From Acidobacteriota bacterium (GTDB lineage Bacteria; Acidobacteriota; Terriglobia; Bryobacterales; Bryobacteraceae), in contig JAFDVZ010000007.1 in the NCBI GenBank assembly GCA_018268715.1, positions 852,106 through 916,105 of the forward strand: a stretch of 64,000 nucleotides of DNA, read 5' to 3'. The notes under the pieces were generated by a model, which worked only from the letters and a program-made list of their open reading frames with translations, was not told where the DNA came from and searched no databases. A program made the position numbers and the translations under genes. Of the stretch, positions 7,658 through 23,422 are shown in pieces. How positions within the stretch are numbered: the stretch's first letter is position 1; the number at the start of each line of letters is the position of its first letter.

Positions 7658-8127
7658 CGCCAGTGGTCCTTCGATTCTCCGGACTGTTGCTGCTGGCCTT
7701 TGAGTTGTGCGGCCAGCAGCAGCCGCTTCCCTACAGCCACAAGACACACCTGGCCCTAGGACTCGAGTGCAAGACGTGTCACAAGAACCCCGATCCGGGA
7801 GAACTTATGGAGTACCCGCCGGAAAGTCTTTGCATGTCCTGTCACCGAGCCATCAAGACCGACAGCCCGCACATAAAGAAACTCGCTGCCGCCGCCACAG
7901 AAAAGAAGCCGATCCCCTGGGTCCGCGTCTACCGGCTCCCGCCGTTCGTGTATTTCAGCCATCGGGTGCATGCCGAGGCCCGCGCGGCCTGCGAGACCTG
8001 CCATGGGCCGGTTCGTGAGCGCGACGTCATCACCAAACAGGTGGCGAACGACATGCGATTCTGCATGACGTGTCATACCGCGTCGAAGGCTCGCAATGAC
8101 TGTGCCGCCTGCCACGAAGAACGCTGA
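7654..8127 (+). CDS. Periplasmic pentaheme cytochrome c (c3/c7-like)
   Basis: 157 aa from a GTG that overlaps the previous stop codon (GTGA), which sets the start and implies translational coupling. The hydrophobic leader VVLRFSGLLLLAFELCG is followed by five CXXCH heme-binding motifs: CKTCH, CMSCH, CETCH, CMTCH and CAACH. Extra His residues (YSHKTH, SPHIKK, YFSHRVH) could be distal ligands for bis-His hemes. The spacing resembles the cytochrome c3/c7 superfamily. Its tight linkage to the PQQ-type dehydrogenase suggests that it takes electrons from that enzyme (inference). The N-terminal leader may be a signal anchor or a cleaved signal peptide. Confidence 0.88.
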   Translation: MTPVVLRFSGLLLLAFELCGQQQPLPYSHKTHLALGLECKTCHKNPDPGELMEYPPESLCMSCHRAIKTDSPHIKKLAAAATEKKPIPWVRVYRLPPFVYFSHRVHAEARAACETCHGPVRERDVITKQVANDMRFCMTCHTASKARNDCAACHEER

Positions 8128-8326
8128 CGCCTCCGACTCCTGTACTCGCCCAGGCTTGGGAACGCTTCTGCGCCCCTTCGAAACAGCCAAACAGGATGAA
8201 GAACACGTTTCCGGAATGTGATCGCTTGTCTGGTTGGCTCGAATTGCGGGAAAGTGACGGGTAGCTCGTCCCTTTGCGGGCCATCATCATCGGTCATCGG
8301 TCGGCGGCCAAAAGCGGGGCGGGACG

Positions 8327-8482
8327 ATGGCGAAGCAGGCGAGGAAAGCAAAGCTGCACGTCCCGAAAACAGTATTGCGGCTGCCTGACCTGGATCAGGC
8401 GAAGTCGGCGGGTCTTGAACAGTCTCAGTTCGATCGAGGCTCGCCGTCGGCGAGCCATGTCATCGATCATCCAAAGACGTAG
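8327..8482 (+). pseudogene. Truncated tyrosine recombinase/integrase N-terminus
   Basis: The frame from ATG 8327 reads MAKQARKAKLHVPKTVLRLP then DLDQAKSA, which I recognise as the N-terminus of a family of acidobacterial phage-type integrases (K-T-V-L-R-L-P-D-L-x-x-A-K-x-A-V-L-N-S-L). After AKSA the expected V-L-N-S-L-S-S is found in the +1 frame (from about 8412), as if one G were inserted in the run GGCGGGTC. The catalytic domain (R-H-R-Y) is absent downstream. It is a dead fragment marking past site-specific integration. The family recall is from memory and needs a search. Confidence 0.5.
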
Positions 8483-8849
8483 ACATCTGAACGTCGGGCC
8501 TGTGCTGGTTCAGCGTGTAATGGAGATCGGGCGTTCCCTGTAAGCGAGCATATCGCGATCCGCGGCGCCAGCGGAGCCATCGTCACGCCCCCTTGTTCGC
8601 AGCACCGGCACACGCGTGCAAAACGACGGTGCGGCTATACCTCCTTCGCCCCAATTATCAGTCACCTCCGCTCGGCTATCTCTCCCGATCCTCGGTCCGC
8701 CTTCAAAGCCATCCGCATCGAAACCGACCGCTAAAGACTCAGGCTTAACGTAACCCCCCACCTCGCCCGGTCAGCTTCGCGGTGTTTTGGCTGCACACAG
8801 CCATCCGTCCACCCGCCGCCCGCGGCGCCGGAAAGGTCCCGCGGCCGGA

Positions 8850-8890
8850 GTGACCTCTAGGCTCTTAAGCAGTTATACTAAAATATAACT
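8850..8890 (+). promoter_or_regulatory. Predicted mazEF promoter with overlapping palindromic operator
   Basis: A -35-like GTGACC (8850-8855) is followed after 18 bp by TATACT (8874-8879). Overlapping the -10 is a perfect 7-bp inverted repeat, AGTTATA (8871-8877) and TATAACT (8884-8890), around CTAAAA. MazE-type antitoxins autoregulate by binding such sites. A GGAG ribosome binding site follows at 8891, 10 bp before the antitoxin ATG. Confidence 0.55.
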
Positions 8891-8904
8891 GGAGAACAAC
8901 TGCA

Positions 8905-9162
8905 ATGCACACCACGAGTCTGCGCAAGGTCGGCGGCTCGATCATGCTGGCCGTTCCACCCGCGCTGCTCGACCTCCTGCGCCTGCGGCCGGGAGTGAAG
9001 GTCGGCATCGCGGTTGAAGGCGGCCAACTGGTCGTCAAACCGCAACCGCGGCCCCGCTACACACTCGATGAACTCCTCGCTCAATGCGATCCCAAGGCGG
9101 CGCGCAGTAAAGAAGATCGCGAGTGGCTCCGCGGCAAGCGGGTCGGCGGTGAACTCATCTGA
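8905..9162 (+). CDS. mazE: MazE-like antitoxin (AbrB/SpoVT fold)
   Basis: 85 aa. The N-terminal swapped-hairpin DNA-binding domain reads TTSLRKVGGSIMLAVPPALLDLLRLRPGVKVGIAVEGGQLVVKP, with the typical R-K-V-G-x-S and L-x-L-x-x-G-x-x-V motifs. The C-terminal tail (YTLDELLAQCDPKAARSKEDREW) is the toxin-neutralising arm. Its TGA shares one base with the ATG of the mazF-like gene (TGATG), so translation is coupled. A palindrome over the -10 box at 8871-8890 suggests autorepression. Confidence 0.9.
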   Translation: MHTTSLRKVGGSIMLAVPPALLDLLRLRPGVKVGIAVEGGQLVVKPQPRPRYTLDELLAQCDPKAARSKEDREWLRGKRVGGELI

Positions 9163-9494
9163 TGAAGCGCGGTGACATTTGGCTGGTTGGGCTCGATCGC
9201 ACCGAAGGGCACGAGCAAAAGGGCCGCCGTCCCGTCCTGATCGTCTCGCCGGACGCCTTCAACCGCGTGACCAAAGTGCCCGTGGTTCTTCCCATCACGA
9301 GCGGTGGGAGTGTCGCGCGAACCGCCGGCTTCGCCGTGCCGCTGGCGGGCGCCGGAACCCAAACCACCGGCGTTGTCCGCTGCGATCAACCCCGCGCCCT
9401 CGATCTCGCCGCACGCGGCGGCAAAAAACTGGAAAGCGTCCCCGACGCGATCATCGACGAAGTGCTGGCCAGGCTGGCGCCGATATTCGAGTGA
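9162..9494 (+). CDS. mazF: MazF/PemK-family endoribonuclease toxin
   Basis: 110 aa, full length for the family. The motifs M-K-R-G-D-I-W-L-V, KGRRPVLIVSPDAFN, VVLPITSGG and TTGVVRCDQPRALDL match MazF/PemK, including the conserved Arg of the R-R-P-V-L-I-V block and the basic R-C-D-Q-P region. These toxins cleave single-stranded mRNA at short sequences until neutralised by MazE. The gene is coupled to the antitoxin by a one-base overlap. No damage is visible, so the module is probably functional. Confidence 0.93.
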   Translation: MKRGDIWLVGLDRTEGHEQKGRRPVLIVSPDAFNRVTKVPVVLPITSGGSVARTAGFAVPLAGAGTQTTGVVRCDQPRALDLAARGGKKLESVPDAIIDEVLARLAPIFE

Positions 9495-9592
9495 GTTGCA
9501 CCGGCGCGATGGGGGCTTCCGGCTTGGCGCGGCGTTAGGATGGCGCCGCTCTACACGGCTGAGCCCACTGTGGTTCCCATCCGGGAACCGGT

Positions 9593-9679
9593 TCAGGGCT
9601 TCGCCTCCAGTTGCTTCCTGATCCCTTGCGCCTCTGCCGAATCGCCCGCCTCTTCGGCGGCCAACAGATGGTATTTGCG
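9593..9679 (-). pseudogene. C-terminal remnant of an unidentified gene
   Basis: On the minus strand one frame reads RKYHLLAAEEAGDSAEAQGI then RKQLEAKP and a stop at 9593-9595. It is a helical, Ala/Glu-rich tail resembling the end of a TPR or helix-rich protein. There is no start in this frame, and a poly-C tract interrupts the sequence upstream. It is probably a leftover gene end in a zone with other fragments. The rest of 9495-9729 holds nothing I can support. Confidence 0.3.
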
Positions 9680-9729
9680 TGTGGGGCATCTTCTCTCAGT
9701 GTTAAACTCATGCGGGGGGGGGGAATCAG

Positions 9730-10050
9730 ATGATTCTTGCCAGGATAATCGCCCTTGGAATCGCGCTCACATCGGTGAGCCTCGCTGAAGACAATCCGGT
9801 CGCGGGCGCGTGGCGACTCAATGCGGCGCAATCGTCTCCCGACGCTGCCAAACTACCCGGCGTGCAAAATGGCGGGCTTAGGATTCGGAAGGAAATCTTC
9901 ACCGGCGGGAAGTCGGCCGCACAGAATCCGTCGCAGCCGGCCGCAGCGAAGCCAGGCCTCGTCCTCAAGGTCGATCTGGCGCCTGACGGCCAGAAACTGG
10001 TTCTCACCTCACCCGACGGAACCAGGAAGGGTGTTTTCCTCCGCGATTGA
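9730..10050 (+). CDS. Small secreted protein of unknown function
   Basis: 106 aa with a Sec-type signal (ILARIIALGIALTSVSLA/E). The mature N-terminus NPVAGAWRLNAAQSS carries the G-x-W-x-L-N-x-A-x-S pattern seen at the start of many small secreted acidobacterial proteins. The rest is Gln/Ala/Lys-rich with a final beta-like strand (KLVLTSPDGTRKGVFLRD). It may be shortened at the C-terminus. A run of ten G residues (9714-9723) lies immediately upstream in the position of the ribosome binding site. No function can be given. Confidence 0.5.
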   Translation: MILARIIALGIALTSVSLAEDNPVAGAWRLNAAQSSPDAAKLPGVQNGGLRIRKEIFTGGKSAAQNPSQPAAAKPGLVLKVDLAPDGQKLVLTSPDGTRKGVFLRD

Positions 10051-10114
10051 TCGCGCTCGGTGGCAACGGGGCTTTCCGTACGGGGTCAATACCCGCGCCT
10101 ACCGCGCTGTAGGG

Positions 10115-10792
10115 CTACTCGGTCGACTCCGCGCGCAGGGATACTGCCGGGTCCACCTGGGTTGCCTTCCAGCATGGAACCAGCACCGCCGGCACACCCG
10201 CGATGAGCAGTAGCGTCGGCGCAGCGACCAGCGGGAGAGGATCGTTGGCTGGGATTTCGTACACGAACCCGGCAATCGTTTTTGTCACCACCCACGAGAG
10301 CCCAAGTCCCAAGATGCCTCCCGCAATCAGTGGACGCAGCGCCTGCTCCAAGACAAGTGCGAAGACTTGTGGCCCGGTAGCACCGAGCGCCATCCGCAGG
10401 CCGATCTCCGGCGTACGCGTGCGAACCCAGTGCATCGCCAGTCCAAACAAACCAACCATATCGAGAACCAGTGAGAGGCTCGCGAAGCTCGACACGATGG
10501 ATGTGTGGAAGCGCCGCTTGGCGCCGGCGGACCAGATCCGGTCGTGCATGGTCTCGAACTCGCCAAACGCAACGCCAGGTTCGCTGCCACGCACCGCCGC
10601 GCCCACGAGCCTCCCCGAACTGCGGGTCCTTGTGCGCACCGCCAGATACATTGACGAGGGTGGTTCCTTGTCCAGCATCCGGTAGATTTCGCCCAGGGGC
10701 TGTTCCTCAAGGGAACTGCTTTTGATATCGGCCACAACGCCGATGATCTCCTGCCAGGGCCCATTCGAGAGCTGACGGATTCCCTTGCCCAC
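10115..10792 (-). pseudogene. C-terminal fragment of a MacB/FtsX-like (ADOP-type) ABC permease
   Basis: 225 codons are open from an internal GTG. The sequence matches the end of acidobacterial MacB-like permeases: W-Q-E-I-I-G-V-V-A-D-I-K, SSMYLAVRTRT, RRFHTSIVSSFASLSLVL, then the FtsX core RTRTPEIGLRMALGATGPQV with three to four hydrophobic helices, and the ending PCWKATQVDPAVSLRAE. Full-length family members have about 800 residues, so roughly the first 550 (including the first membrane helix and the periplasmic MacB domain) are missing. Upstream of 10792 the frame no longer resembles the family. An IS3 element begins within about 270 bp, and rearrangement around it is the likely cause. Confidence 0.75.
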
Positions 10793-11064
10793 GGCTCCGC
10801 GGTCGCCCCCTCCGTGCCAACGTTGATGAGACAGTTTCCCCGGTCATAATTGACTGATCGGGTTGGACCCTTCTGTTGCCGGCGCTCGATTCGACTGCTA
10901 TACGAAGGCCCTGCGGCGCTCTTTCTGGAGAGTGCCGCTTCAAGCACGCCTGATTCCGTGCTCACGTGCCCTTGTAGTTGAGGACCGGCTCCCCCGCCCC
11001 GGAAATTCTATGGACAGCTCTTTGGGGACATAATTGAGCAGAAATGTTCCGAAGGAGGAAGAGC

Positions 11065-11457
11065 ATGGCAAGTGGAACGAAGAAGGATTCCGGGGCTGCG
11101 GAAGGAGCCCGGAGGGCGACTGAGCAGGCCCCGGAATCGGCCGGCCCCACCGGGACTGGCCGATGGTCGGCGCAACGCAAGGTTTCCGTCATCCTCGAAT
11201 TGTTGCGGGGAGCGGACCTGGAGAGCACGTCCCGAAAATACCGGGTGACGGTCGCCACTCTGACGCAGTGGCGGGATCGTTTCCTGACGGCTGGCGAGAG
11301 CGGAATCAAGAGTCGCGAAGTGGACCTGGAGGATGAGGAAAAGCGGCGCTTGAAGGCCGTGGTGGCCACCATCAGCGTCGACAACGAGCTGTTGCGCGAG
11401 AAGATCGCTCGTCTGGAGAATGGCCGCCCTTTTCCAGCGGGGAGGTCGAAGCGATGA
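11065..11457 (+). CDS. IS3-family transposase OrfA (helix-turn-helix protein)
   Basis: 130 aa from the ATG at 11065, chosen because AAGGAGG lies 6-12 bp upstream; an ATG at 11044 has no such site. The central part, RWSAQRKVSVILELLRGADLESTSRKYRVTVATLTQWRDRFL, is the HTH_Tnp_1 helix-turn-helix that binds element ends. A leucine-zipper-like C-terminus follows (LKAVVATISVDNELLREKIARLE). The stop overlaps the orfB start by 4 bp (ATGA), so orfB is probably made by translational coupling rather than by the usual -1 frameshift. Confidence 0.92.
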   Translation: MASGTKKDSGAAEGARRATEQAPESAGPTGTGRWSAQRKVSVILELLRGADLESTSRKYRVTVATLTQWRDRFLTAGESGIKSREVDLEDEEKRRLKAVVATISVDNELLREKIARLENGRPFPAGRSKR

Positions 11458-12347
11458 GCCGCACCGTTTCGCCTTCCACCAACAAGCCGTACGGGGTGGC
11501 GCGCGTGGCCGGGGTTTGGCAGGTGGCGCGATCCAGTTTCTACGCAGCGCGCCTCAGGCAGTTGCGTCCGCGGCAGCCCGGCAAGCGAGGTCCCCGTGTT
11601 CTATCGGATGCCGAGTTGGTGGCTGCCATTCGGGAGCTTCTGGCCGCGCCCGTGTTCGCTGGAGAAGGGTATCGCAAAATCTGGGCGCGCCTGCGGCACA
11701 ACAGCGTGCGCACGTCGAAAGACCGGGTGCTGCGGCTGCTCCGTGAAAACCAACTCCTGTCCCCGGCGCGCCAACCGCAGCCAAGCCAGGCCAACCCGCA
11801 CGACGGCACGATCGTCACGGAAGCGCCCGACCCGATGTGGGGCACTGATGCGACCGCCACCTGCACCGAGCAGGAGGGCGCCGTCACCGTCTTTGCCGCG
11901 ATCGATCACTTCACGGCGGAGTGTGTGGGCATTCACGCTGTGAAGAAGGCCACGCGCTTCGAGGCGCTCGAGCCAATCCGTCAGGGCGTGCGAGAACGGT
12001 TCGGAGCCTTCTCCGCCGCAAGCGCCTCCGGCCTGTGCTTGCGTCACGACCACGGAAGCGTATACATGAGCGATGATTTTCAGAATGAGATCCAGTTCGT
12101 CGGCATCCAATCGTCGCCCGCTTTCGTTCGGCAGCCGGAAGGAAACGGATGCATTGAGCGCTTCTTTCGCACCTTGAAAGAGCAGCTACTCTGGGTCCAG
12201 CGGTTTCATGATCTCGCCGAACTGCAAACCGCGGTCGCCGACTTCCGCGATCGCTACAACCAACACTGGATTATCGGGCGGATGGGCTACCGCACTCCAA
12301 CTCAGGCAAGACGAGATTCCCTCGTTGACTTACAGACTGCGGCGTGA
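11454..12347 (+). CDS. IS3-family transposase OrfB (DDE integrase core)
   Basis: 297 aa. The N-terminus resembles the HTH_21 region (YRKIWARLRHNSVRTSKDRVLRLL). The retroviral-integrase-like core carries the DDE triad: Asp in DPMWGTDATA, Asp in LRHDHGSVY, and Glu in GNGCIERFFRTLKE, with the usual K/R seven residues later. The end, YNQHWIIGRMGYRTPTQARR, is typical of family members. No frameshift or stop interrupts it. It cuts and joins element ends together with OrfA. Confidence 0.93.
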   Translation: MSRTVSPSTNKPYGVARVAGVWQVARSSFYAARLRQLRPRQPGKRGPRVLSDAELVAAIRELLAAPVFAGEGYRKIWARLRHNSVRTSKDRVLRLLRENQLLSPARQPQPSQANPHDGTIVTEAPDPMWGTDATATCTEQEGAVTVFAAIDHFTAECVGIHAVKKATRFEALEPIRQGVRERFGAFSAASASGLCLRHDHGSVYMSDDFQNEIQFVGIQSSPAFVRQPEGNGCIERFFRTLKEQLLWVQRFHDLAELQTAVADFRDRYNQHWIIGRMGYRTPTQARRDSLVDLQTAA

Positions 12348-12350
12348 TTC

Positions 12351-12440
12351 AATGAAGCGACTTATTCCCACTGCGCTGTCCATCTCGTCTGGGGCAATAC
12401 AGAATTTCATCGCCGCCCCTCTTCCGGCTCGTTCCGGTGA
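12351..12440 (+). pseudogene. Possible IS200-like (Y1) transposase N-terminal fragment
   Basis: A 29-codon frame directly after the IS3 orfB reads TYSHCAVHLVWGNTEFHRRP and then stops. The pattern Y-S-x-x-x-V-H-x-V-W is that of the first strand of IS200/REP-associated Y1 transposases. No catalytic Tyr or HUH region follows. It is probably a truncated neighbour of the IS3 element. The identification rests on a short match. Confidence 0.3.
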
Positions 12441-12530
12441 TGGCTAAATTCAGAGTCGTCGCGTCGGTTCGAGCTGACATTGGTCAACTGGCTCTTCATC
12501 ATTCGTGTACGAAGGCATCCCGGCGATCGC

Positions 12531-12647
12531 ATGCCTGGCCGCTGTGCGCGTCACTTCGCCCGCGCCTTTCGCGTCTCCGAGTCAACCATTCGGAAGATCC
12601 TCCTCAGGAGGACATGGTCTCATCTCGACCGCATTGATCCCGATTGA
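12531..12647 (+). pseudogene. Short helix-turn-helix-like remnant
   Basis: 38 codons reading CARHFARAFRVSESTIRKIL then LRRTWSHLDRIDPD and a stop. The A-x-x-F-x-V-S-x-S-T-I-R-x-I motif with a following T-W-x-H-L is the repeat-type HTH often found at the C-terminus of homing-type HNH proteins and resolvases. It overlaps the 3' end of the HNH gene on the other strand, so at most one is fully genuine there. Likely decayed. Confidence 0.3.
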
Positions 12648-13523
12648 ATCTCCGACCGGGGACAGATCCTCTTCTCCGGAATCCAAGCAAAGCGTATATC
12701 CAGCGAGAGGCGTTCCGACGGGTACGCCGACGCTCGGAAAGCTGACGCGATAGACGAGATATCCGAACAGCCTTACTACGACGACGACAGGCTCTCTTTG
12801 CGAAATGAGAAGACCATGAAACGGACCGTAGCTCGACGCATGGAGTTCCTCAAAAAGGCAACAGTCAGGGGACAAGTCCCTCAATCGGAGACTGTCTCGA
12901 ACTCTGTCCAGCGACGGATGGAAGATGCCTGATCCAACATGGAGAGCGAGGAACTCGTAGGCGATCTTGATGACGAGTAGGGGCTTGACATCCGGGCTGT
13001 TCAGCTTGAGGCGAGGCGCGATGGCCGCGTCTTTCTTGATAGCGGTACGGTCCGAAAGCTGGATGTATTGGCCTTCGGTAGCCGCGTCGAGTCGCGCCAA
13101 GGCTTCGGCGATCTCGGCGTTATCCTTGCCTTCGCGGCGGAGCATCGTTTCGACCTTCTTGGGTCCGTCCTTGCTCGGAACAACGATTGAACCATCGCGA
13201 AGACGTTGCGAGTCGAGTGTAACCTCGCCCTTTCTGAGCCGACCGTCCAGAATGCCCAATGGGCTATCGAAGATGTACGGTTGCCCTTCTTCCAACCTTC
13301 GCGCGAGTTCCGGGATCTGTTCGCTCAACCTGTTGAACGCGAATCGAACCGCCGGATCGCTCTTCCAGCCTCCTTCGACTTCGCCGAGGCCACTATTACA
13401 GGGAGCACAAAGGAACCGCGCCCATAACCGACCTCCCAAGGCTTCGGGAATGATGTGTTCGGCGCTGAAGGGAGCTTCGCTCTTGCATACGAGACAACGA
13501 GGATCGTTCCAACCGACTTCCAT
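12582..13523 (-). CDS. HNH endonuclease-family protein
   Basis: 313 aa. The N-terminal 50 residues form an HNH zinc-finger nuclease motif: C10-x2-C13, then E22-H23-I-I-P with an acidic/His metal site, and C39-x2-C42-N43. This is the HNH_5-type arrangement common in stand-alone phage- and island-borne nucleases. The remaining 250 residues are unrecognised, with mixed alpha/beta character (a VVVVVRLFGYLVYRVSF strand is near the end), and may bind the substrate. It stands alone between the IS3 element and the tRNA fragment. It could be a defence or homing nuclease; the target is unknown. Confidence 0.75.
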   Translation of the reverse strand: MEVGWNDPRCLVCKSEAPFSAEHIIPEALGGRLWARFLCAPCNSGLGEVEGGWKSDPAVRFAFNRLSEQIPELARRLEEGQPYIFDSPLGILDGRLRKGEVTLDSQRLRDGSIVVPSKDGPKKVETMLRREGKDNAEIAEALARLDAATEGQYIQLSDRTAIKKDAAIAPRLKLNSPDVKPLLVIKIAYEFLALHVGSGIFHPSLDRVRDSLRLRDLSPDCCLFEELHASSYGPFHGLLISQREPVVVVVRLFGYLVYRVSFPSVGVPVGTPLAGYTLCLDSGEEDLSPVGDSIGINAVEMRPCPPEEDLPNG

Positions 13524-13889
13524 GCCCGATTGTACGTCCGTAGGCCGCGCCGCCGACGCCTAACCTAGGGTATTTTCTACGGTTTTTTTCTCATGAGGAG
13601 TTTTCGAGGAGTCGCGGTAAACTGTTGATGGCTATGCTACTAGGAAGATTTGGAGCGGGAGACGGGACTCGAACCTGCGACGTCCAGCTTGGGAAAACGC
13701 TCAAAGATCGTGTACTAAAGAGGATACGGTGTTCTAAGCAGTCCTGAAGGCCACGCGGTTTCCGCAGTTTCCACCCAATGCCAGCGAGCGGCGTCATGAT
13801 GGCGTCACGCGGTCCCTCCGGTAAAGCTATAAATAATAACGACGCCCTACAAAAATGGGAACTCGTCACCACACGCCCGAAGACCTTCC
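13524..13889. other. Intergenic region holding a tRNA-Gly 3' fragment
   Basis: 366 bp between the HNH gene (minus strand) and the OLD-like gene (plus strand). It holds a 45-bp piece of tRNA-Gly (listed) and a moderately AT-rich stretch before 13890 (AAGCTATAAATAATAACGAC) that may carry the promoter of the downstream gene. No protein gene is supported. Confidence 0.55.
13651..13695 (-). other. 3' half of a tRNA-Gly(CCC) gene, attachment-site-like scar
   Basis: On the minus strand the sequence begins at the anticodon loop TTCCCAA (anticodon CCC), continues through the 3' anticodon stem GCTGG, a variable loop, the T arm with GGTTCGAGTCCC, and ends with the acceptor strand CTCCCGC-T-CCA. The U73 discriminator and CCCGC fit tRNA-Gly. 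The 5' half (acceptor GCGGGAG, D arm, 5' anticodon stem) is not upstream; the bases before the loop do not pair with GCTGG. Integrases that recombine in the anticodon loop leave exactly such 3' halves. One T-stem pair (A-C) is mismatched, consistent with a nonfunctional copy. Confidence 0.65.
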
Positions 13890-15620
13890 ATGTTGCGTAC
13901 GCTCCGTCTGCAAGACTACCGTTGTTTTGATGATCATACCGTCACGTTCCACCCCGGCACGGTCGTGGTGGGGCGAAACAATGCCGGCAAAAGCACGATC
14001 GTTGAGGCGTTGCACCTCGTCGCCGCCGTCGTCAACCGCAAAAGCGCGACGTTTACCCAACCGCCCGCCGACTCCGAGTTGCCCGGATTTCAACGTTGCA
14101 TCATCCCGCGCATCTCGCATCTTGGGCTGAATCTGCGCACCGCCTTTCACCGGTACGGCGACCCGCCGGCGGTATTGACGGCCAACTTTACCGGGAACGC
14201 GACGGTGACGATTTACGTCGGCCGCGAAGGGATCCACGCCACGATTGCCGGACCAAAGGGATGGGTGAGCACCAGCAGCGGCTTTCTTGCGCTTGACATC
14301 CCACACATCAACATCTTGCCGCAAGTCGCGCCACTGCAAACTGAGGAGACCAATCTTCGCGATGAGTACATCAATGAGCACTACTACACGCGCCTCTCCT
14401 CACGCCACTTTCGCAATCAAATCCTGCGCAACCCGGAATACTTCGCGCACTTCAAAAGTCTCGCCGAGGAGACCTGGCGCGGGCTGCGCGTGGAGACCGT
14501 CCAAAACAGCGGGAATAATCTCAGCATGCTGGTCACGGATGGAGATTTCGCCGCCGAAGCTGCGTGGATGGGCCACGGCCTGCAGATGTGGCTGCAGACC
14601 ATCTGGTTCGTCGCCAAAACACCAACGACCTCCACGGTCGTCCTCGATGAGCCCGATGTGTACATGCACCCGGATCTGCAGCGCAAACTCTACCGCCTCG
14701 TGCGAGCGCGCTTTTCGCAAAGCATCATCGCCACACATAGCGTGGAGATCATGGCCGAAGCCGATCCCGCGGACATTCTTGTGATTAATAACAAACGCAA
14801 GCGCTCCGTGTACGCGAACACCGAGCCCGGCGTACAAGTACTCGTGGACCAGCTCGGGGGCATCCACAACGTGCACCTCGCGCGGCTTTGGAACGCGAAA
14901 AAAGTCCTGCTCCTTGAAGGCAAAGACCTCGGCATCCTCAAGACGTTTCACGGCAAACTCTTCCCCAATACCGACACACCCCTTGATGCCATACCCAACC
15001 TCAGCATCGGGGGATGGGGCGGGTGGGAGCACGCCATCGGCGGCAGCATGGCATTAAAAAACGCCGTGGGGGATCGAATCACGACGTACTGCATCTTTGA
15101 TCGCGATTACCACACCAGCGAAGAGTTATCGGATCGGTACGACCAAGCACAGGAGCGCGGGATAAGCCTACACATCTGGCTGCGCAAAGAGATCGAAAAC
15201 TATCTCCTCAATCCGACTGTGATCGCGCGCCTGATCAAGCAACGCACAAAACAGAGTCCACCAACCCCGGCAGACGTTACTGCGTTCTTGCTCAAGGCTT
15301 GCCAGCAGGAAAAGGACACAGTCTTTGATGCCATCGCAAACCATCTCGCCCACCGCGACAAAAGCCTCGACACGGGCGGCGCGAACAAAGCGGCAAGAAA
15401 ACTCCTTGACGCCCGATGGCAGGATCACAAGCTTGAGATGGTCAGCGGCAAAGCGCTCGTCTCCCACCTCAACACGTGGACGCAAGAAGAGTTCAAAACC
15501 AGCGTGGGCGGGATGGCGATTGCCAAAGCCTTCCAGGCCAATGAGATCCCCAACGAGATGCGAGAATTCCTCGTCACGGTCGAGGAGGGCAAAGTGATCA
15601 CAGCAAAGACCCTACCCTAA
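13890..15620 (+). CDS. OLD-family ATPase/TOPRIM nuclease (AAA_21-type)
   Basis: 576 aa. The N-terminal ABC-type ATPase has Walker A G-R-N-N-A-G-K-S-T (28-36) and Walker B VVLDEPD (D253-E254), then an H-loop-like IIATHSVEI. The C-terminal half looks like a TOPRIM domain: E343 in VLLLEGKD, D404 and D406 in CIFDRDYH, then RKEIENYLL. This order is that of class 1 OLD nucleases, ATP-regulated DNA nucleases found in phage P2, Gabija (GajA) and some retrons. No UvrD-like GajB helicase or reverse transcriptase is nearby. The gene lies just after the tRNA-Gly scar and before a small coiled-coil gene, in an island-like context; an anti-phage role is inferred. Confidence 0.85.
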   Translation: MLRTLRLQDYRCFDDHTVTFHPGTVVVGRNNAGKSTIVEALHLVAAVVNRKSATFTQPPADSELPGFQRCIIPRISHLGLNLRTAFHRYGDPPAVLTANFTGNATVTIYVGREGIHATIAGPKGWVSTSSGFLALDIPHINILPQVAPLQTEETNLRDEYINEHYYTRLSSRHFRNQILRNPEYFAHFKSLAEETWRGLRVETVQNSGNNLSMLVTDGDFAAEAAWMGHGLQMWLQTIWFVAKTPTTSTVVLDEPDVYMHPDLQRKLYRLVRARFSQSIIATHSVEIMAEADPADILVINNKRKRSVYANTEPGVQVLVDQLGGIHNVHLARLWNAKKVLLLEGKDLGILKTFHGKLFPNTDTPLDAIPNLSIGGWGGWEHAIGGSMALKNAVGDRITTYCIFDRDYHTSEELSDRYDQAQERGISLHIWLRKEIENYLLNPTVIARLIKQRTKQSPPTPADVTAFLLKACQQEKDTVFDAIANHLAHRDKSLDTGGANKAARKLLDARWQDHKLEMVSGKALVSHLNTWTQEEFKTSVGGMAIAKAFQANEIPNEMREFLVTVEEGKVITAKTLP

Positions 15621-15987
15621 CAAGAAAGGACGGCGCTTCGCGCATACCAGCTACGCCCAAGACATCAGCTTTGAAAGCGCACGCTAAGCTATGCGGTGGG
15701 TTGCTAGTGATACCTCTTCTGGTGGCCACTGGTTGATCTCGCGCGTTTGGACCCCGGCGCTTTGCAAGATGTCATAAAGGGGGCGGATGCCATCGGTTGC
15801 CTGATTGCGGATTTGCTGATTCGGCCCTGTGGAGCGTTGTTGGCAAAACGTGAACGCTTGTTCCAAGATACTATTCGATACTCCGCAGGCGGGCGCAGGG
15901 CGTCGGGCAAGCACGTGCGAAACGGTGCGGAAAACGGTGCGGACCTGCGCGAGACGGCCACCGTAACGCGAGCGCAAGCCACGCAAC
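15621..15987. other. Intergenic region, no gene supported
   Basis: 367 bp between the OLD-like gene and the coiled-coil gene. Open frames exist on both strands (for example 15684-16103 minus) but they overlap each other and match nothing I know. An 11-bp sequence, CACGCTAAGCT, at 15680-15690 recurs at 16388-16398, flanking this region and the coiled-coil gene. Confidence 0.4.
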
Positions 15988-16395
15988 TTGCGAAAGACAC
16001 CGAAGGGCCCGGCGAAGAACGGCACGCTCCCAGAGGAGCTGGAGAGCTTCACGCGCAGCACCCAACGCCTCACGAGCCTGCGCGAGCGACTCCGGAAGGA
16101 CATCGAGGACTACCAGCACGCGTACACCGCCAAACTCGCAGCGTTCGACCAAGAACGCGCACAGATCAATGACACGACCACGCAGCGCACCATCACCAAC
16201 CTCCGACGGCACACCGAAGACGACCTCCGAGAACGCCTCGAAAACGCCAATGCCACCCTGGAAGCACTCGACCGCTGGCCGCTGTTTTCGATACCCCGAA
16301 AATCGCCGTTCACACCACTCACTACCGAAATATCCGTCACCTTATCAACAACTTCCGAAATTCACTCACCCCGAGTCTCTAGACACCCACGCTAA
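15988..16395 (+). CDS. Small coiled-coil protein of unknown function
   Basis: 135 aa from a TTG start. The sequence is strongly helical and charged from about residue 16 to 96: PEELESFTRSTQRLTSLRER then RKDIEDYQHAYTAKLAAFDQ, TTTQRTITNLRRHTEDDLRE and ANATLEALDRW. The heptad-like spacing suggests a long antiparallel or dimeric coiled coil. The basic N-terminus (RKTPKGPAKNG) could touch nucleic acid. The C-terminal 35 residues are Ser/Thr/Pro-rich. No family is recognised. It is the next gene after the OLD-like nuclease on the same strand, 367 bp away. Start uncertain. Confidence 0.55.
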   Translation: MRKTPKGPAKNGTLPEELESFTRSTQRLTSLRERLRKDIEDYQHAYTAKLAAFDQERAQINDTTTQRTITNLRRHTEDDLRERLENANATLEALDRWPLFSIPRKSPFTPLTTEISVTLSTTSEIHSPRVSRHPR

Positions 16396-16563
16396 GCTGA
16401 AAGTAGGAGGGAGCGCCAAGCCTCATCCACGCGCTCCACGCTCGTAGAGAGCATCCCCCGCAACCGGTGTCCACCGGTCGGAAAATCGTAAACGCACAGG
16501 AAAGGCGGTAACACATCACGCTGGCGGAGCCCTGCCCGCCGGCCAGGATACCGGTGTCGGCAA

Positions 16564-17559
16564 ATGGATAACACGAACGAAAAGAAACCTGTCAGCGAGG
16601 CCCGCAGTGAGGCCGCCCGCATCAACGGCGCCAAGTCCAAGGGGCCCGTCACGCCCGAAGGCAAAGAGCGATCTTCAAAGAACGCCACCTTTCACGGCGT
16701 TCTGTCCCGCACCGGACTCATCCCCGAAGAGGATCGGCCCGAGTTCTCCACCGGCTTCCAGTGCTATCTCTATCGTCACGACCCTCGCGACCGCCACGAA
16801 TACGACCTCATCGAGGAAGCCTACTCCACCACCTGGCGCCGCCGCAAAGCCGAGGTGCTTCACGATATCTCGGTAGCCATCCAGGTCACTGAGGACATGT
16901 CGGACGTGGACGTCTGTTACCCCGGCCTCGACCACCTCGGCCGCGAGAGCCTCGCCTACCGCCACTCCCTGGCGCAAAGCAATCTCCTTCCCAATCTCGA
17001 ACGCTACATTCGCCAACTCGGCTCGCAGGCCGCCCGCGCTCTCAAGGAGTTCCGGATGCTGCGCAACGACAGCCTGCCCCCGGGCCAACCCCATCCCGGA
17101 GTCATCGGCCCTCACCCGGGCCCCCCGGGCCAGAGGGATTACGTTCCACTGTTGACCTATCCCCCGGTTGTCCCTCCCGCCGAGCAGCAGGACCCTGAAA
17201 AGGAAGCCCGCGTCGCGGCGTGGATGCAGATCTTCGTCCGCCGTTTCAAGTTGGATGCCGGGACCGCCACCCCGAAGGCCGCCGAACCAAACGAACCCAG
17301 GCCCGCCGCGCCTCCCCCTCAGCCGCCCGAACCGTCCCCGAAAGTAATGACCGCCACGGCGGGTTCGGCCCCGGAACTCGCGCCGGAAATCGACCAAACG
17401 AACCCAGCAGCCCCCCAAACCACGCCCCAGGCCCCGGCGTCCGCAACATCCGGCAGGATTCCCCCGCCTAGCCTTGGAATGCGTGGCCCGACCGTGCCTG
17501 CTCGCCCCCGGACGCCTCAGCCGGCAGGTCGCCATCCCGGTAGAGATCCAGGCTGGTGA
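16564..17559 (+). CDS. Conserved hypothetical protein with TPEGK...NAxxHG motif
   Basis: 331 aa. Residues about 15-50 contain AARINGAKSKGPVTPEGKER followed by SSKNATFHGVLS. This S-x-G-P-x-T-P-E-G-K-x-x-S-S-x-N-A-x-x-H-G signature is common in acidobacterial proteins of unknown function, often present in many copies per genome. A helical region follows (EDRPEFSTGFQCYLYR to about residue 160, with DLIEEAYSTTWRRRKAE). The last ~130 residues are Pro/Ala/Thr-rich and probably disordered. No signal peptide is present. The function is unknown; the basic motif suggests nucleic-acid binding (inference). Confidence 0.75.
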   Translation: MDNTNEKKPVSEARSEAARINGAKSKGPVTPEGKERSSKNATFHGVLSRTGLIPEEDRPEFSTGFQCYLYRHDPRDRHEYDLIEEAYSTTWRRRKAEVLHDISVAIQVTEDMSDVDVCYPGLDHLGRESLAYRHSLAQSNLLPNLERYIRQLGSQAARALKEFRMLRNDSLPPGQPHPGVIGPHPGPPGQRDYVPLLTYPPVVPPAEQQDPEKEARVAAWMQIFVRRFKLDAGTATPKAAEPNEPRPAAPPPQPPEPSPKVMTATAGSAPELAPEIDQTNPAAPQTTPQAPASATSGRIPPPSLGMRGPTVPARPRTPQPAGRHPGRDPGW

Positions 17560-17811
17560 CCGCCTGCGCGGGCTAATCGTCGAACAACAACTCGGTTCAC
17601 CTCGCGGGTCAACCCGGCCAATCCTGTAGACGTCCCTCGTGGGCGACGCGAGAATTGCGGCAACGGCTCGAACCCCGTCTCGATCACCTCGGGTGCGCCG
17701 CCCTTGGCCAGTTCGTGGAGCTACGCCGTGTGGCCCAGCCGCACAGGGTGCGCCGCTGGAGCGAATCCTCCGACGATGACGAACACGGCGGTCCGGTGGA
17801 TGCGACTCCGC

Positions 17812-19938
17812 CTATTGCGCGGCCGGCGACTTAGTCCAGATGTAGGCCTGCTGGCGGCCGGGGACACCGTCGACGGCGATCGAGAACAGTTGATAGCCGG
17901 AGGCGCCGGGCGCGAGCTTCACCCGCCAGACGCTCGAAATCGAGCCAGCGTCGGGAGTGGCCGGCGGGCGGCTGGCCAGATAGGACACCGAGACCGGCAG
18001 CGTGACTGATTCGAGCGCGACGGTGTTGACGACGCCGGTGGCGAGCGGCGCGTCGGTGACGCCGACGCCGTTCAGGAACAGCGACACGGTGGCGCCGATG
18101 ACGGCCGGATTGGCGCAGGAGTTTACCGTGCCGTCGGCATTCAGGGCGAAAGCGTGCGCACCGAGAGTCGGCGGAGTAGCGGCGCAGGACTCCTCGGGCA
18201 TGGCGAACAACGTGGGCTGGCGGGCGACGATCGCCAGATTGCGCGCCGGTCCGGAGGCCGCGTCGGCGCTCGTGGCGAGGCGCAGTTGGGTCGAGCCGGC
18301 CACCTCATAGGGGACCTGGAAGTTGATCTGGCCCGGCGAGGCGTAGAGCATCGCGGCCGGCTGGGCGCCGATCGAGATGGACGCGCCGGCCAGTTCGGCG
18401 GGCGCGCGGTCCCCCGTGAATGACGCCGTGTCCGCCGCCAGCTTCGAGCCGAACATCGAGATCAGTTGACCGGGGGCGGCCCGCGAAATCTGCATGCCGT
18501 CCGCGCCATCCACCAGACAGGCTTGCGTTGCGGGGTCGTCCAGGTGGACATCCGCCAGGACGTCGGTGGCCGAGGCGAGCGCGAGCGAACCATCCGGCCG
18601 CGCGGCGATCTGGGGCGTCACCGTGTAGGCGAGTTCGCAGAAATAGCAGGTAGCGAATCCGTTGACGGGCTGCGAACTGACCAGCTTCGCGCCGGAGGGG
18701 TCGAGCGTGGCCAGATAAACGGCGGCGTGCGAAAGGGCGGGCCGGCAGGCGCTGGGAACGTCGGCGAGTCCGGGGAAGTCGTGCGACCCGGCGATGCCAG
18801 TCACGTGGATCGCGCCCGCGCGGTCGACCGCCATGCCCGTGAGGGTTTCGATGGACGTTCCGCTCAGCAAGGTCGACCAGATCAGGGCGGTCCCCGTGGA
18901 GTTCAGCTTCGTCACGAAGCCCGTGGATGGGGGCGGATAAATCGCCGGATGGGGGCCCGAGTAGGCCTGGATGGGAGGCTGGGCGGTGACGGTGTAGGCG
19001 GTTTGGAACGCGCCGGAAGTCACCGGATAGTCGGAGGAGTTTGTGGATCCGGCGAGCAGAACCGCGCCTTCGGCGTCCACGTTCAGGGCGCGAACGCTCG
19101 ATCCCCAGGTTCCTGTAACGAAGGTGGCCCAAAGCAGGTTGGCGCCGTCGGCGCTCAGCTTTGCCACGTAGGGGTAGGCGCAGGCGAATCCCACCATGCC
19201 GGTTCCGCCGCAGGCGCGGAATTCGTGAGTGGTCTGGAGGGCGCCGGGCGTCGGCAGGCTGGAACTGGGGTAGCCGTAGATGTCGTAACCAGTGACGATA
19301 ATGGCGCCCGATTGATCGTAGGCCGCCAGGTTGCCTCCAAGACCCTGGAGCGCGAAAAGGGCCTTCGTCCCCTGCGCGTTCAGCTTCAGCAGGATCGCTT
19401 GGCCCGAGGCGGAGTAGGACCCCGTGGCGGCGAAGGTCGTGTCGGCGTTGCCGCTGATCAGCGCCTCTCCCGCGTCATTGACGGCGATGCTCGCGCCGCT
19501 GCCGGCTTTTGCTCCGCCGAAGTACGTCGACCAGACGACGCCGCCGGCCGTGTCCACCTTCGCCGCAAAGCCCTGATTGTCGCCTTCGTAGGCGGTCTTC
19601 ATCGCGCCGGCGCTGACGGGGAAGTCCGGCGAGGAGGTCCAGCCGGTGACGTAGATGGAGTCGTCGGCGCCGACGGCGATGGCGCTCGCGTATTCTGAGC
19701 CGGAGCCGTGGAGCGCGGTCCAGGCGAGGATCCGCGAGCCGTCGGGCGAGAGGCGGGCCACGAAGGCGTCGGCCGCGTCGGTCTTCGATGAGGTCGCGCC
19801 GGCGACGCACAGGTTTCCGGCGGAGTCCGTGGCGATGGCGGACGCCTTTGCGCCTTCCGGCAGAAATCGGAGTTCGACGGCGGCGTGAGCCGCGGCCGCC
19901 GAAAGAAGGATGATGGCCGCCAGGATACGACGTGGCAT
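17812..19938 (-). CDS. Secreted SBBP beta-propeller protein with Solibacter-type C-terminal domain
   Basis: 708 aa with a Sec signal (MPRRILAAIILLSAAAAHA). Residues about 20-470 hold repeated SBBP units of the form D-x-x-G-x-x-x-V-x-G-x-T-x-S-x-D-F-P and F-V-x-K-L-x-x-x-G-x-x-x-x-W-S-T (for example VTGWTSSPDFPVSAG and LAGSTNSSDYPVTSG). Residues about 475-705 match the Solibacter C-terminal domain (TIGR03437-like): SRAAPGQLISMFGSKLA, AMLYASPGQINFQVPYE, VSLFLNGVGVTDAP. Such proteins are extracellular and expanded in Solibacter; their function is unknown. The preceding minus-strand gene ends 25 bp upstream, so the two may be cotranscribed. Confidence 0.9.
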   Translation of the reverse strand: MPRRILAAIILLSAAAAHAAVELRFLPEGAKASAIATDSAGNLCVAGATSSKTDAADAFVARLSPDGSRILAWTALHGSGSEYASAIAVGADDSIYVTGWTSSPDFPVSAGAMKTAYEGDNQGFAAKVDTAGGVVWSTYFGGAKAGSGASIAVNDAGEALISGNADTTFAATGSYSASGQAILLKLNAQGTKALFALQGLGGNLAAYDQSGAIIVTGYDIYGYPSSSLPTPGALQTTHEFRACGGTGMVGFACAYPYVAKLSADGANLLWATFVTGTWGSSVRALNVDAEGAVLLAGSTNSSDYPVTSGAFQTAYTVTAQPPIQAYSGPHPAIYPPPSTGFVTKLNSTGTALIWSTLLSGTSIETLTGMAVDRAGAIHVTGIAGSHDFPGLADVPSACRPALSHAAVYLATLDPSGAKLVSSQPVNGFATCYFCELAYTVTPQIAARPDGSLALASATDVLADVHLDDPATQACLVDGADGMQISRAAPGQLISMFGSKLAADTASFTGDRAPAELAGASISIGAQPAAMLYASPGQINFQVPYEVAGSTQLRLATSADAASGPARNLAIVARQPTLFAMPEESCAATPPTLGAHAFALNADGTVNSCANPAVIGATVSLFLNGVGVTDAPLATGVVNTVALESVTLPVSVSYLASRPPATPDAGSISSVWRVKLAPGASGYQLFSIAVDGVPGRQQAYIWTKSPAAQ

Positions 19939-19963
19939 GCCTTAAGCGTAACTCCGTCGGCGG

Positions 19964-22900
19964 TTACGGTTGTGTGTCGAGTTCGCGGAGGGCGCGCTGA
20001 GCTACCGGGTGTCCCGGCTTGCGCTCAAGCAAGTCGCGCATGACGTCCTTCGCCTTTTCGCGATTGCCCAGCCGGACCCACACACGGGCGAGGTTGAGAT
20101 AGAGGGCGTCGTCGTTCGGCGCCATCCGGATCCCGTACTGGAAGGCCGCGATGGCGTCGTTCGGTTGGCCGATGTTCAGGAACAGAACGCCCAGGTTGTT
20201 GATGGCCGATGAGTCGTCGCGCTTGAGTGAGATGGCGGTTTCGAATAACTTGCGCGCCTCGGCGGTGTGGCCTTGCTTGGCTAATAGGAGTCCCAGGGCG
20301 TTGGCGGCGTCGCCGCTCCTGGGGTCGAGTTCGAGCGCGTGGCGGTAGGTGCGTTCGGCCTCGGCGGCGGCGCCTGACTTCTCCTGGGTCTCGCCGATGT
20401 TCAGCAGGATGTAGATCGACTCAGGCTCGATGGAGAGGGCGCGTTCGTACAGGCTGAGCGCTTCCTTCAGGTTGCCGGCTTCGACTTCCACGCCTCCTAA
20501 CTCGTTCCAGCCGCCGGTCAATTTGGGATCGATGGCGACGGCCCGCTGAAGGGCCTGGCGGGCCTGGTTGAGGCGGCGGGCCTGGAGGTGGATGCGGCCC
20601 ACGGCGAACAGCGCTTTCGGGTTGTCGGGCGTGCGTCGGAGCATCTCCTCGAGATAGGGCAGGGCCTGTTCGTTGTAGCCCGCCATCAGCAGGGCGCCGC
20701 CGAATTTGTAGTAGTCGCGGCGCGGATGGCCGGTGAAACGGCCTTCGAGCGGGACGCCGCGCGGATCCGGGAGCGGGCCGTCGAGCGAGTGCAGGTCGGC
20801 CTGCGCGACCGCGGCGGACGGCGGCTCGGCGTAGATCTTGCGGGCGCGGCTCTCGGCGTCGATCAGGAGCCAGATGGGCGTCTGTAAGTCGACGCGGTAA
20901 TCGAAGAGATAGCGGCGGAAGATCGCGTAACCCGCGGCTAACTCGTCGCTCGCCTTTCGTAAGTCGAGTGAGTCGAAGGGTGTCGCGATGTTGGGAGCGG
21001 GTTCGCCCGCGTGAATGTAGAGCAGGGCCGGGCCGCGGCGCTTTTCGGGTAATGGGACAGGCTCCCAGAACCATGTCGAATGCAGGCGGGCGAGATTGTC
21101 CACCGTGAAGGAGATGTTGTCGGGCAGGTCCTTGCGGGGGCGAAGGGGCGTCGCCTTGGGTTCGGCGACGCCTTCGGTGATCTCATAAAGGAACCCGGCC
21201 TTGAGGGGCGGGAACGTCTGGGTGTCGCCGGAGGGCCAGCGGACTCTGACGTCACGGGCGACGGTCTCATCGCCGAGGCCGAAATACAGGCGTTTGGTGT
21301 GCTGCGACAGGTAGGCCGACCCGGCGGCCAGCCAGCGCGTCCGGCCGCCCGCCTCGACACGCGCGCCGATGGCGTCGCGATTCGATTTCACGCCCCGAAG
21401 GGCGATGACGATCTTGTTGCGATCGACGCCGCGGGCGTTCTGGAAGACGCGGACCTGCGGGCCGAGCCTGCTCTTTAGAACGATGTCCAGATTGCCGTCG
21501 CCATCGAAGTCCGTGAAGGCGAACGAGCGGCTGTCTTCGGGGACGTCGATGCCGCTGACTCCCGAATGGTCCCAGTAACGGCCGGCCTTGCGGACGAAGA
21601 AGAAATTGGGCTCGGGGCCGGCCCAACTGTGCTCCTGGCGGACTAACTGGTTGATGGCGTTCCAGCCGTTTTCGTACTCCGGCGCGGGCGATTGTTTGAC
21701 TGGCGACTTAGAGACCACCTGGCGGTAGAAATAACTCATCAGGTCGGTCTTGCCGTTGTTCGTCAGCATGCCGGTGGCGATATATAACTCGGGCGTGCCG
21801 TCGTTGTCGAAATCGGCGCCGTCGCAGGACCAGGACCAGGGGCAGATTTCGATGCCTTCGACGTCGCCCGTATAACCGAATGTGCCGTCGCCGTTGTTGT
21901 GATAGAGCGAGTTGCCCTTGACGTGGTGTTGGTACTTGGCCTTGAGCGAGGGGTCCTTCGCCACCGGGCCGAAAGCGGGGTCGTTGACGACGCGCTGTCC
22001 GCATGCGCTCCACATGTTGGAGACGAGCAGGTCCGGACGGCCGTCGCCGTCGTAATCGAGCCAGGCGGCGCTCATGCCGGGGCCGAGGTCGACCACGCCG
22101 GCCTCCTCGGCGACGTCGCGGAAATGGCCGTTTACGTTCTTATACAGGTTCTTGCTGCCAAAGTCGTTGGTGACGTAGACGTCGGGCCAGCCGTCGTTGT
22201 TGTAGTCGCACCAGGCCGCCGCGAAACTGAACCGGTTGTTGTTATGGTCCATGCCGGTGGCGGCGGTGACGTCTTCAAAATAGCCCGGCGATTCGTTCAG
22301 ACGGTTGCGGAACAGGAAATTCGGCGGGCCGTTGCGCGCGTCGTGGTAAGGGACCGGATAGCGATATTGGGCCTCGCTCTGGTAATAGACGTAACAGCAG
22401 AGATAGAGGTCCAGTCGGCCGTCGCGGTCGTAATCGGCTGCCGCGGCGCTGGTGAAGGAGCCTTGTGGCGGCGTGGCGAATCGGAAAGCGTCCGGCTGCG
22501 GGGTGAACTTTCCGGCGCCGTCGTTCAGAAACAGGAGGACCTGATTGGTTCGGATCAGAACCAGGTCCTGGCGGCCGGAGTTACGAAAATCGGCGAAGAG
22601 GGCGCCTGCGGTGTCGTCCAACATATCGAGGCCGGCCTGCTTCGAGATGTCGCGCAGGCGCCCGGAGTCGTCGAATTTATACAGGCGGTTCGGGAGGCCT
22701 CCGGGCTGGCAAACGAAGATCTCGTCGCGGCCGTCTCCGTCGATGTCGGCGGCGGCCACGCCGTTTTCGCCGTAAACGTCGATGCCGCAGGCCGGGTCGA
22801 GACGGGCGCGCCAGTAGGGGACGCCGCGCGTCAATTGGTCGTGGAAGGAGGGCTCGCCGTCGAAGGCGTGGCCGGTGACGTCGCGAAACCAGGGCCGGTC

Positions 22901-23422
22901 GGCGTGGGTCAGGATCTCCTCGACGGGTTCAAGGCTCGCGATCGCGCCGTTGCGCCAGGTGATCTTCCAATACCCGACGCGGTATTCCAGGCGGCCCTGG
23001 TTGCGGCTGCGGATCACATAGCGGAGTTGATCGCCGGGCAGTGAGAAGAAACGAGCGTCCCGGATCTCGCCGAGCGAGGCTCGCCATTTGGTCCAGCCTT
23101 CGGCCACGGCGGCGTCTTTTCCGAACACCGCTTTCGCGACGCCGGGAGCGATTTCACGGTATTCGACCGGCGCGGGAGAAACCCCGGCGCAACCGGCGGC
23201 GATGGGCGTGGCGGACCGGGATAGGGCCGCGCGCAGGCCGGTTTCGATCTCCATGGCGACCTTCTCGCCGGCGAATTCGTCGGAGGCGGGCGGAACCAGG
23301 TCCATCAACGGCGCCCAGGCCGGCTGTTGTCGGAATTTGACGGGGAACGGGGCGGACGCGTGGCCCTTCGATGCGAAGAAGGTGGTTGCGGCGAACGCTG
23401 CCAGGAAGTCGCGACGGTTCAC
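19964..23422 (-). CDS. FG-GAP/ASPIC-UnbV repeat protein fused to a TPR domain
   Basis: 1152 aa with a twin-arginine-like leader (MNRRDFLAAFAATTFFASKGHA). From about residue 215 to 640 there are FG-GAP/VCBS repeats with D-x-D-G-D-G-x-x-D calcium-like loops (AAADIDGDGRDEIFVCQ, DYDRDGRLDLYLCC, DYDGDGRPDLLVSN, DFDGDGNLDIVLK). Residues about 655-745 form an ASPIC/UnbV domain (IALRGVKSNRDAIGARVEAG ... VRVRWPSGDTQTF). After a linker with unrecognised sequence, the C-terminus (about 925-1150) has six or so TPRs (ALFAVGRIHLQARRLNQARQ and following). This CRTAC1-like architecture suggests an exported scaffold or adhesion protein, unusual in ending with TPRs. Confidence 0.88.
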   Translation of the reverse strand: MNRRDFLAAFAATTFFASKGHASAPFPVKFRQQPAWAPLMDLVPPASDEFAGEKVAMEIETGLRAALSRSATPIAAGCAGVSPAPVEYREIAPGVAKAVFGKDAAVAEGWTKWRASLGEIRDARFFSLPGDQLRYVIRSRNQGRLEYRVGYWKITWRNGAIASLEPVEEILTHADRPWFRDVTGHAFDGEPSFHDQLTRGVPYWRARLDPACGIDVYGENGVAAADIDGDGRDEIFVCQPGGLPNRLYKFDDSGRLRDISKQAGLDMLDDTAGALFADFRNSGRQDLVLIRTNQVLLFLNDGAGKFTPQPDAFRFATPPQGSFTSAAAADYDRDGRLDLYLCCYVYYQSEAQYRYPVPYHDARNGPPNFLFRNRLNESPGYFEDVTAATGMDHNNNRFSFAAAWCDYNNDGWPDVYVTNDFGSKNLYKNVNGHFRDVAEEAGVVDLGPGMSAAWLDYDGDGRPDLLVSNMWSACGQRVVNDPAFGPVAKDPSLKAKYQHHVKGNSLYHNNGDGTFGYTGDVEGIEICPWSWSCDGADFDNDGTPELYIATGMLTNNGKTDLMSYFYRQVVSKSPVKQSPAPEYENGWNAINQLVRQEHSWAGPEPNFFFVRKAGRYWDHSGVSGIDVPEDSRSFAFTDFDGDGNLDIVLKSRLGPQVRVFQNARGVDRNKIVIALRGVKSNRDAIGARVEAGGRTRWLAAGSAYLSQHTKRLYFGLGDETVARDVRVRWPSGDTQTFPPLKAGFLYEITEGVAEPKATPLRPRKDLPDNISFTVDNLARLHSTWFWEPVPLPEKRRGPALLYIHAGEPAPNIATPFDSLDLRKASDELAAGYAIFRRYLFDYRVDLQTPIWLLIDAESRARKIYAEPPSAAVAQADLHSLDGPLPDPRGVPLEGRFTGHPRRDYYKFGGALLMAGYNEQALPYLEEMLRRTPDNPKALFAVGRIHLQARRLNQARQALQRAVAIDPKLTGGWNELGGVEVEAGNLKEALSLYERALSIEPESIYILLNIGETQEKSGAAAEAERTYRHALELDPRSGDAANALGLLLAKQGHTAEARKLFETAISLKRDDSSAINNLGVLFLNIGQPNDAIAAFQYGIRMAPNDDALYLNLARVWVRLGNREKAKDVMRDLLERKPGHPVAQRALRELDTQP

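Follow-up and report, generated by a model that had tools for sequence, protein, structure and literature searches.

A standalone ATPase-TOPRIM gene of the OLD superfamily in an acidobacterial genome, most likely an anti-phage effector, lies beside the relic of an unrelated gene

The stretch of 64,000 nucleotides from an Acidobacteriota genome analysed here (the window) carries at 13890-15620 an intact gene for a 576-aa protein that joins an ABC-type ATPase to a TOPRIM domain. The protein belongs to the ATPase-TOPRIM (OLD) superfamily and fits no published OLD class. A preliminary description had coupled this gene with a small coiled-coil gene downstream as a two-gene defence pair; we find one gene and not a pair, most likely encoding a self-contained anti-phage effector of the abortive-infection type. 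The sequence at 15942-16276, by contrast with this intact gene, is what is left of an unrelated gene, one end of it cut beside a repeated element, and has no part in the function.

The ATPase-TOPRIM gene and its predicted fold

The gene and the parts of its product are as follows.

13890-15620, + strand: standalone ABC ATPase-TOPRIM protein, intact, 576 aa (OLD superfamily, AriAB-like TOPRIM), identified from full-length homologues of 39-73% identity, dN/dS and an AlphaFold model
13968-13994, + strand: Walker A motif VGRNNAGKS, residues 27-35, with G28, N30, N31, A32, G33 and K34 invariant in nine family members
14568-14609, + strand: ABC signature-like motif MGHGLQMWLQTIWF, residues 227-240, of which GHGLQMWLQTIWF is invariant in the ATPase-TOPRIM family
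14634-14675, + strand: Walker B and the loop after it, TVVLDEPDVYMHPD, residues 249-262, with D253, E254 and H260 invariant
14901-15209, + strand: TOPRIM nuclease domain, residues ~338-440, assigned from invariant columns, the C-terminal fold and the analogy with TsOLD
15210-15587, + strand: all-helical C-terminal domain, residues ~441-566, as predicted in the AlphaFold model of the C-terminal region

The 576-aa reading frame is a real, intact gene under purifying selection and no chance frame: it opens with an ATG whose position is the same throughout the aligned homologues, and comparison with the 73% identical homologue gave a dN of 0.21 and a dS of ~2.0 (dN/dS ~0.1, with dS near saturation) and identities of 0.79, 0.84 and 0.47 at the three codon positions. 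An intact ATPase and a TOPRIM acidic triad (E343, D404, D406) had been read from the sequence before, and alignment of nine family members bears this out: the Walker A motif (VGRNNAGKST when extended to residues 27-36), D253-E254, H283, E343, D404 and D406 are invariant in all nine. The TOPRIM residues comprise E343, D346, D404 and D406, together with a KEIENYL motif that contributes E434 and E436; the candidate metal B ligands, D346 and E434/E436, are invariant in the same alignment. Residue roles were taken from the TsOLD counterparts E377, D381, D431, D433 and E480 (PMC7049728). Sequence comparison revealed that the ABC signature is of the GxGxQ type, like that of P2 Old (FGHGTQ), and not the SSGE of AriAB. 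Pfam recognised the ATPase alone, with AAA_21 and AAA_15 above cut-off.

AlphaFold modelled the full-length protein with a pLDDT of 82.6 and a pTM of 0.67, and the C-terminal region by itself with a pLDDT of 86 and a pTM of 0.82; in the latter model about seven helices come after the TOPRIM core. With the whole 576-aa model as query, Foldseek returned TsOLD as the top PDB match (6p74, E 2.6e-15), followed by PtuA and GajA, matches that in our reading come mainly via the ATPase. A search with the C-terminal region by itself gave modest E-values and was led by the corresponding regions of Class 2 OLD proteins (6njw, E 1.5e-3; 6nk8); AriB came after them (8ux9_A, E 0.011; 8v46_D), and TsOLD, which is without a C-terminal helical domain (PMC7049728), was matched over 125 columns only, in the TOPRIM part. 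A sequence search of this region against PDB chains yielded chance matches only. As far as the models predict, the family combines a Class 1 context with a C-terminal architecture like that of Classes 2 and 4.

The small open reading frame and the surrounding sequence

Three further features flank the gene.

15942-16276, + strand: relic of a gene for a coiled-coil protein, frameshifted and truncated at either end; its DNA is 74% identical to positions 1400-1733 of contig L041, with frame-changing indels
16292-17596, + strand: 1.3-kb repeated element with a 331-aa open reading frame (16564-17559), recognised from a 93.6% copy over 1317 bp (G000:C39, ~772-773 kb)
13651-13691, - strand: tRNA 3'-end fragment, a possible integration scar, recognised from matches to tRNA genes elsewhere in the genome

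The open reading frame at 15988-16395 (135 aa), previously taken for a coiled-coil gene, is not an intact gene; it is a chance reading of relic and repeat DNA, and its TTG start lies inside the homologous stretch. A patterned scan of IMG/VR revealed one relative of the 135-aa protein, 65% identical over residues 8-96, on contig L041, where the gene is intact and encodes a protein of 213 aa that begins MKLIGALLAIGIGLVAITQFTNPSTVRAQ, an apparent signal peptide. At the DNA level, homology to the L041 gene starts at 15942 in another frame (DLRETATVTRAQATQLAKD) and extends to 16276, where ~60 codons of the L041 gene are missing; on the way the frame is changed by a 1-bp insertion (16003/16004) and by a compensating indel pair (16044-16048). 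The last ~35 codons of the open frame (residues ~100-135) are repeat DNA from 16292. Over the in-frame remainder, dN to the L041 gene is 0.23 and dS 0.65, in keeping with an old gene that has since decayed. A second relative, in a genome of the host's own family (G180), also contains stop codons. The contig that carries the intact coiled-coil gene, 91.9 kb long and perhaps a fragment, showed no OLD relative, and no coiled-coil relative was found on plasmids. The viral-database entry L041/L093 (IMGVR_UViG_3300036781_000821) also carries an open reading frame for a 650-aa HerA/VirB4-like ATPase, and may therefore be an integrative/conjugative element rather than a virus.

The repeat downstream has the look of a mobile or repeat-associated element not described before: its 93.6% copy lies ~95 kb off in the same genome, 27 related stretches occur in that genome, and its left-end sequence is found at 18 places. 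Its 331-aa reading frame (ARINGAKSKGPVTPEGKERSS...) is of no known family. On the other side of the ATPase gene, the tRNA scar of the preliminary description was recovered as a 93% match of 13651-13691 to the 41 nt at the 3' end of tRNA-Val(tac), with 86-87% to tRNA-Gly genes; no intact tRNA is present in the window. This fragment lies between the ATPase gene and a divergent gene for a 313-aa HNH_5 endonuclease (12582-13523, - strand); by eye, the relic in L032 is likewise near an HNH-like open reading frame. Further away, the window contains an IS3-type transposase pair (11044-12347, an HTH_Tnp_1 frame and an rve integrase-core frame), beside it a 225-aa fragment with an FtsX permease C-terminal domain (10115-10792), and a MazE-like antitoxin (E 1.3e-4, just under the Pfam cut-off) adjoining a PemK/MazF-like toxin (9e-29) at 8905-9494.

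Distribution and gene neighbourhood

Relatives of the 576-aa protein were found at 14 other loci; three of them are more distant, and the close ones, at 39-73% identity, span at least four phyla going by record titles. Full-length homologues come from Acidobacteriota (73% in genome G209; 53-56%), Chloroflexota (43%), Bacteroidota (39-41%) and Verrucomicrobiota (39%). High-scoring members occur in 4/396 sampled genomes of the phylum. Within the host's family (237 genomes including the host), two of the 236 others hold full-length close relatives (73% and 54%), and a third, G116, retains a 147-residue N-terminal remnant only (L014/L071, G116:C167:311-1093), which is 63% identical and continues into unrelated sequence, as a decayed copy does. 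We found no tblastn match to the protein in 50,697 phage records and no relative in IMG/VR; plasmid relatives are distant only (27-29%, on Cupriavidus megaplasmids), and the search of named phage families with the protein and with the coiled-coil frame returned only unspecific ATPase PHROGs.

An all-against-all comparison of the open reading frames within 5 kb of the 15 loci revealed no conserved neighbour gene, leaving only generic TPR/ABC matches, a weak 57-residue match between L008 and L067, and a Fic protein at two loci. The lack of a recurring neighbour argues for a standalone gene; five loci (L006, L009, L010, L003, L067) reach a contig end on at least one side, and an infrequent partner may therefore have been missed. 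The absence of a Gabija helicase or retron reverse transcriptase, already remarked upon in the preliminary description, was confirmed in a Pfam scan of the neighbouring reading frames, which contained neither a GajB-like helicase gene nor a reverse transcriptase. A retron or non-coding RNA beside the gene was considered as well and rejected, since Rfam returned nothing at E <= 0.5 for positions 8000-20000.

Inspected by eye, some loci have defence-like neighbours: type I restriction-modification genes in L068, and HerA-like ATPases in both L067 and L008, accompanied by an HNH-type gene in the former and by a large helicase in the latter. Several homologues lie among housekeeping genes and not defence genes. 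In G209 the ATPase gene is at 1.10 Mb, and the right-hand flanking gene of the window has its relative at 2.27 Mb; the ATPase gene therefore moves independently of this flank. The right-hand gene itself (19964-23422) is conserved in relatives (70-73%) and synteny with them stops there, which leaves the border of the insert undefined from that side. Together, distribution and setting form the pattern of an optional, horizontally moving gene. The defence-like character proposed earlier agrees with this, as the gene is patchily distributed, occurs in more than one phylum, has another position in a related genome and in some cases lies within a defence island.

The host encodes a second ATPase-TOPRIM-like family (L002, G000:C39:441692-442531, with relatives L015-L017), whose members have 545-587 aa and an EIENY/EIESY motif; it is apparently standalone as well, and in L015 it abuts a helicase-like reading frame.

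Family placement and likely function

Profile searches set the protein apart from both of its nearest reference groups. PF20469 (OLD-like_TOPRIM) gave no match at E <= 1 in any of the nine family members, whereas the P2 Old control was matched at 1.2e-17. DUF4435 (PF14491, the AriB domain, with a 27-bit cut-off) gave no match at E <= 1 in the window protein, and its best score among the relatives, 15.8 bits (E 0.012) in the 73% homologue, is below the cut-off, as is one of the two real AriAB controls (24.1 and 41.9 bits). With PADLOC, AriAB was the top profile for the window protein and matched 9/9 family members; in the window protein this match extends over part of the profile (residues 243-463; 86.6 bits), against 425-474 bits over nearly the whole profile length for true AriAB fusions in the phylum. 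Comparison of the family's C-terminal region by hhalign, in which the targets were single sequences and the probabilities are indicative only, gave 64-76% with two AriAB proteins and 37% with an AriAB-like protein, against 22% with one OLD-TOPRIM protein and ~0.1% with P2 Old. Alignment revealed a series common to the family and AriAB: EG..D, DxD and (E/C)(I/L)EN(Y/F)L. In a tree of 26 proteins the family forms its own clade (99/98), with a sister group of Cupriavidus and two acidobacterial proteins (98/98), and the AriAB-type proteins form a separate clade (95/97); the deep order of this tree is unreliable because the branches are long. The earlier name 'OLD-like' stands for the superfamily, but the nuclease domain is closer to AriB of PARIS than to P2 Old.

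Two other classes resemble the protein in part. Class 2 OLD proteins, including GajA of Gabija, share the order of ATPase, TOPRIM and C-terminal helical domain, and their isolated C-terminal regions are the best structural matches of the corresponding region here; they differ in that the window gene is without a GajB helicase gene and that the profile matches are partial and weak. Class 3 OLD effectors of retrons (Eco8 type) have the same ATPase and TOPRIM effector architecture, whereas the window locus is without a reverse transcriptase or an Rfam match and the profile match is weak.

Of the specific readings, a fused PARIS protein (AriAB, Class 4 OLD), whose ATPase would sense phage anti-restriction proteins and whose AriB part would cleave tRNA, accounts for the single chain of ABC ATPase (AAA_15/AAA_21) and TOPRIM, for the PADLOC result, for the EIENYL that follows the DxD motif as in the AriAB fusions, for the best hhalign match and for the presence of AriB among the few Foldseek matches. 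We regard it as unlikely, given that DUF4435 is not reached, that the ATPase signature is GHGxQ and not SSGE, that the protein is ~100 aa shorter, and that it falls in a clade of its own, if one whose deep joins are unsure. About equally unlikely is an ordinary Class 1 OLD nuclease of the P2 Old or Thermus scotoductus OLD (TsOLD) kind, degrading or nicking DNA: the single-gene context, the ATPase with Walker A, Walker B and H-loop joined to a TOPRIM, the equivalent metal A residues (E/D/D), the GxGxQ-type signature and the whole-protein match to TsOLD, taken as mainly ATPase-driven, all conform to it, but 0/9 members match PF20469, the modelled C-terminal helical domain is absent from TsOLD, and the TsOLD match of the C-terminal region is confined to the TOPRIM part. 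Failing two Class 1 features and one PARIS feature (DUF4435), the protein is filed with neither. The paper that described PARIS applied its fusion profile at an 80-bit threshold (PMC9122126); automated tools may therefore already call some family members PARIS, which limits any claim of novelty.

A role outside defence, as a DNA-maintenance or cell-cycle ATPase, has a precedent within the superfamily in the archaeal Cran1, an ATPase-TOPRIM protein that acts in the cell cycle and illustrates that such proteins are not all defensive (PMC12796447), and it would suit those homologues that lie among housekeeping genes. We think it distinctly improbable: the very patchy distribution in phylum and family, the relatives across phyla and the loss by decay in G116 are unlike those of a core gene. 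Hardly credible any longer is a true two-gene system in which the ATPase-TOPRIM protein works with the 135-aa coiled-coil protein. The two frames are indeed adjacent on the same strand, separated by the 367-bp gap reported before, and the smaller is rich in charged coiled-coil sequence; against this, the small frame is a truncated, frameshifted relic with a repeat-derived tail, and its intact relative, with its apparent signal peptide, is on a contig without an OLD relative. A relic from the gene of an apparently exported protein could not, therefore, have the role of a cytosolic partner. Moreover, conserved adjacency, by which the preliminary description had proposed to judge the pair, was found at 0 of the 14 other loci, that of the 73% homologue included, also with the intact 213-aa protein as query.

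As a self-contained effector, the reading that we prefer, the protein would in its working mode be most like a fused PARIS or a single-gene OLD effector. Its ABC/SMC-like ATPase head may assemble into dimers or larger rings; in this state it would sense infection and restrain the fused TOPRIM nuclease, much as AriA of PARIS holds the AriB tRNase sequestered until a trigger arrives (PMC12409363). Upon such a trigger the TOPRIM domain would cut nucleic acid with two metal ions, metal A being held by E343, D404 and D406 and metal B probably by D346 and E436. Host tRNA is the likelier target and DNA the alternative, an order that we adopt because the TOPRIM is nearest to AriB. We infer the nuclease activity, its substrate, the trigger and the anti-phage role. 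Single-gene OLD proteins with phage phenotypes are known, P2 Old among them; in ybjD the TOPRIM is dispensable, and nuclease action is therefore not to be assumed for the 576-aa protein. A 2023 review treats broad defence activity of single-gene OLD proteins as an open question (PMC10568477).

More tentatively, and with some doubt, we suggest that the family could constitute a separate, undescribed class of standalone ATPase-TOPRIM defence proteins in at least four phyla, in which a chain of ~580 aa would combine an OLD-type signature, an AriB-like TOPRIM and a helical C-terminus, would sense and kill without a partner, and would link Class 1 OLD proteins to PARIS. The relic beside the gene is a caution that a coding-like open frame adjoining a defence gene need not be its partner. 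A family like this one, compact, encoded by one gene and bearing an AriB-like nuclease, would offer a means of testing whether PARIS-type tRNA cleavage and OLD-type sensing work in one chain.
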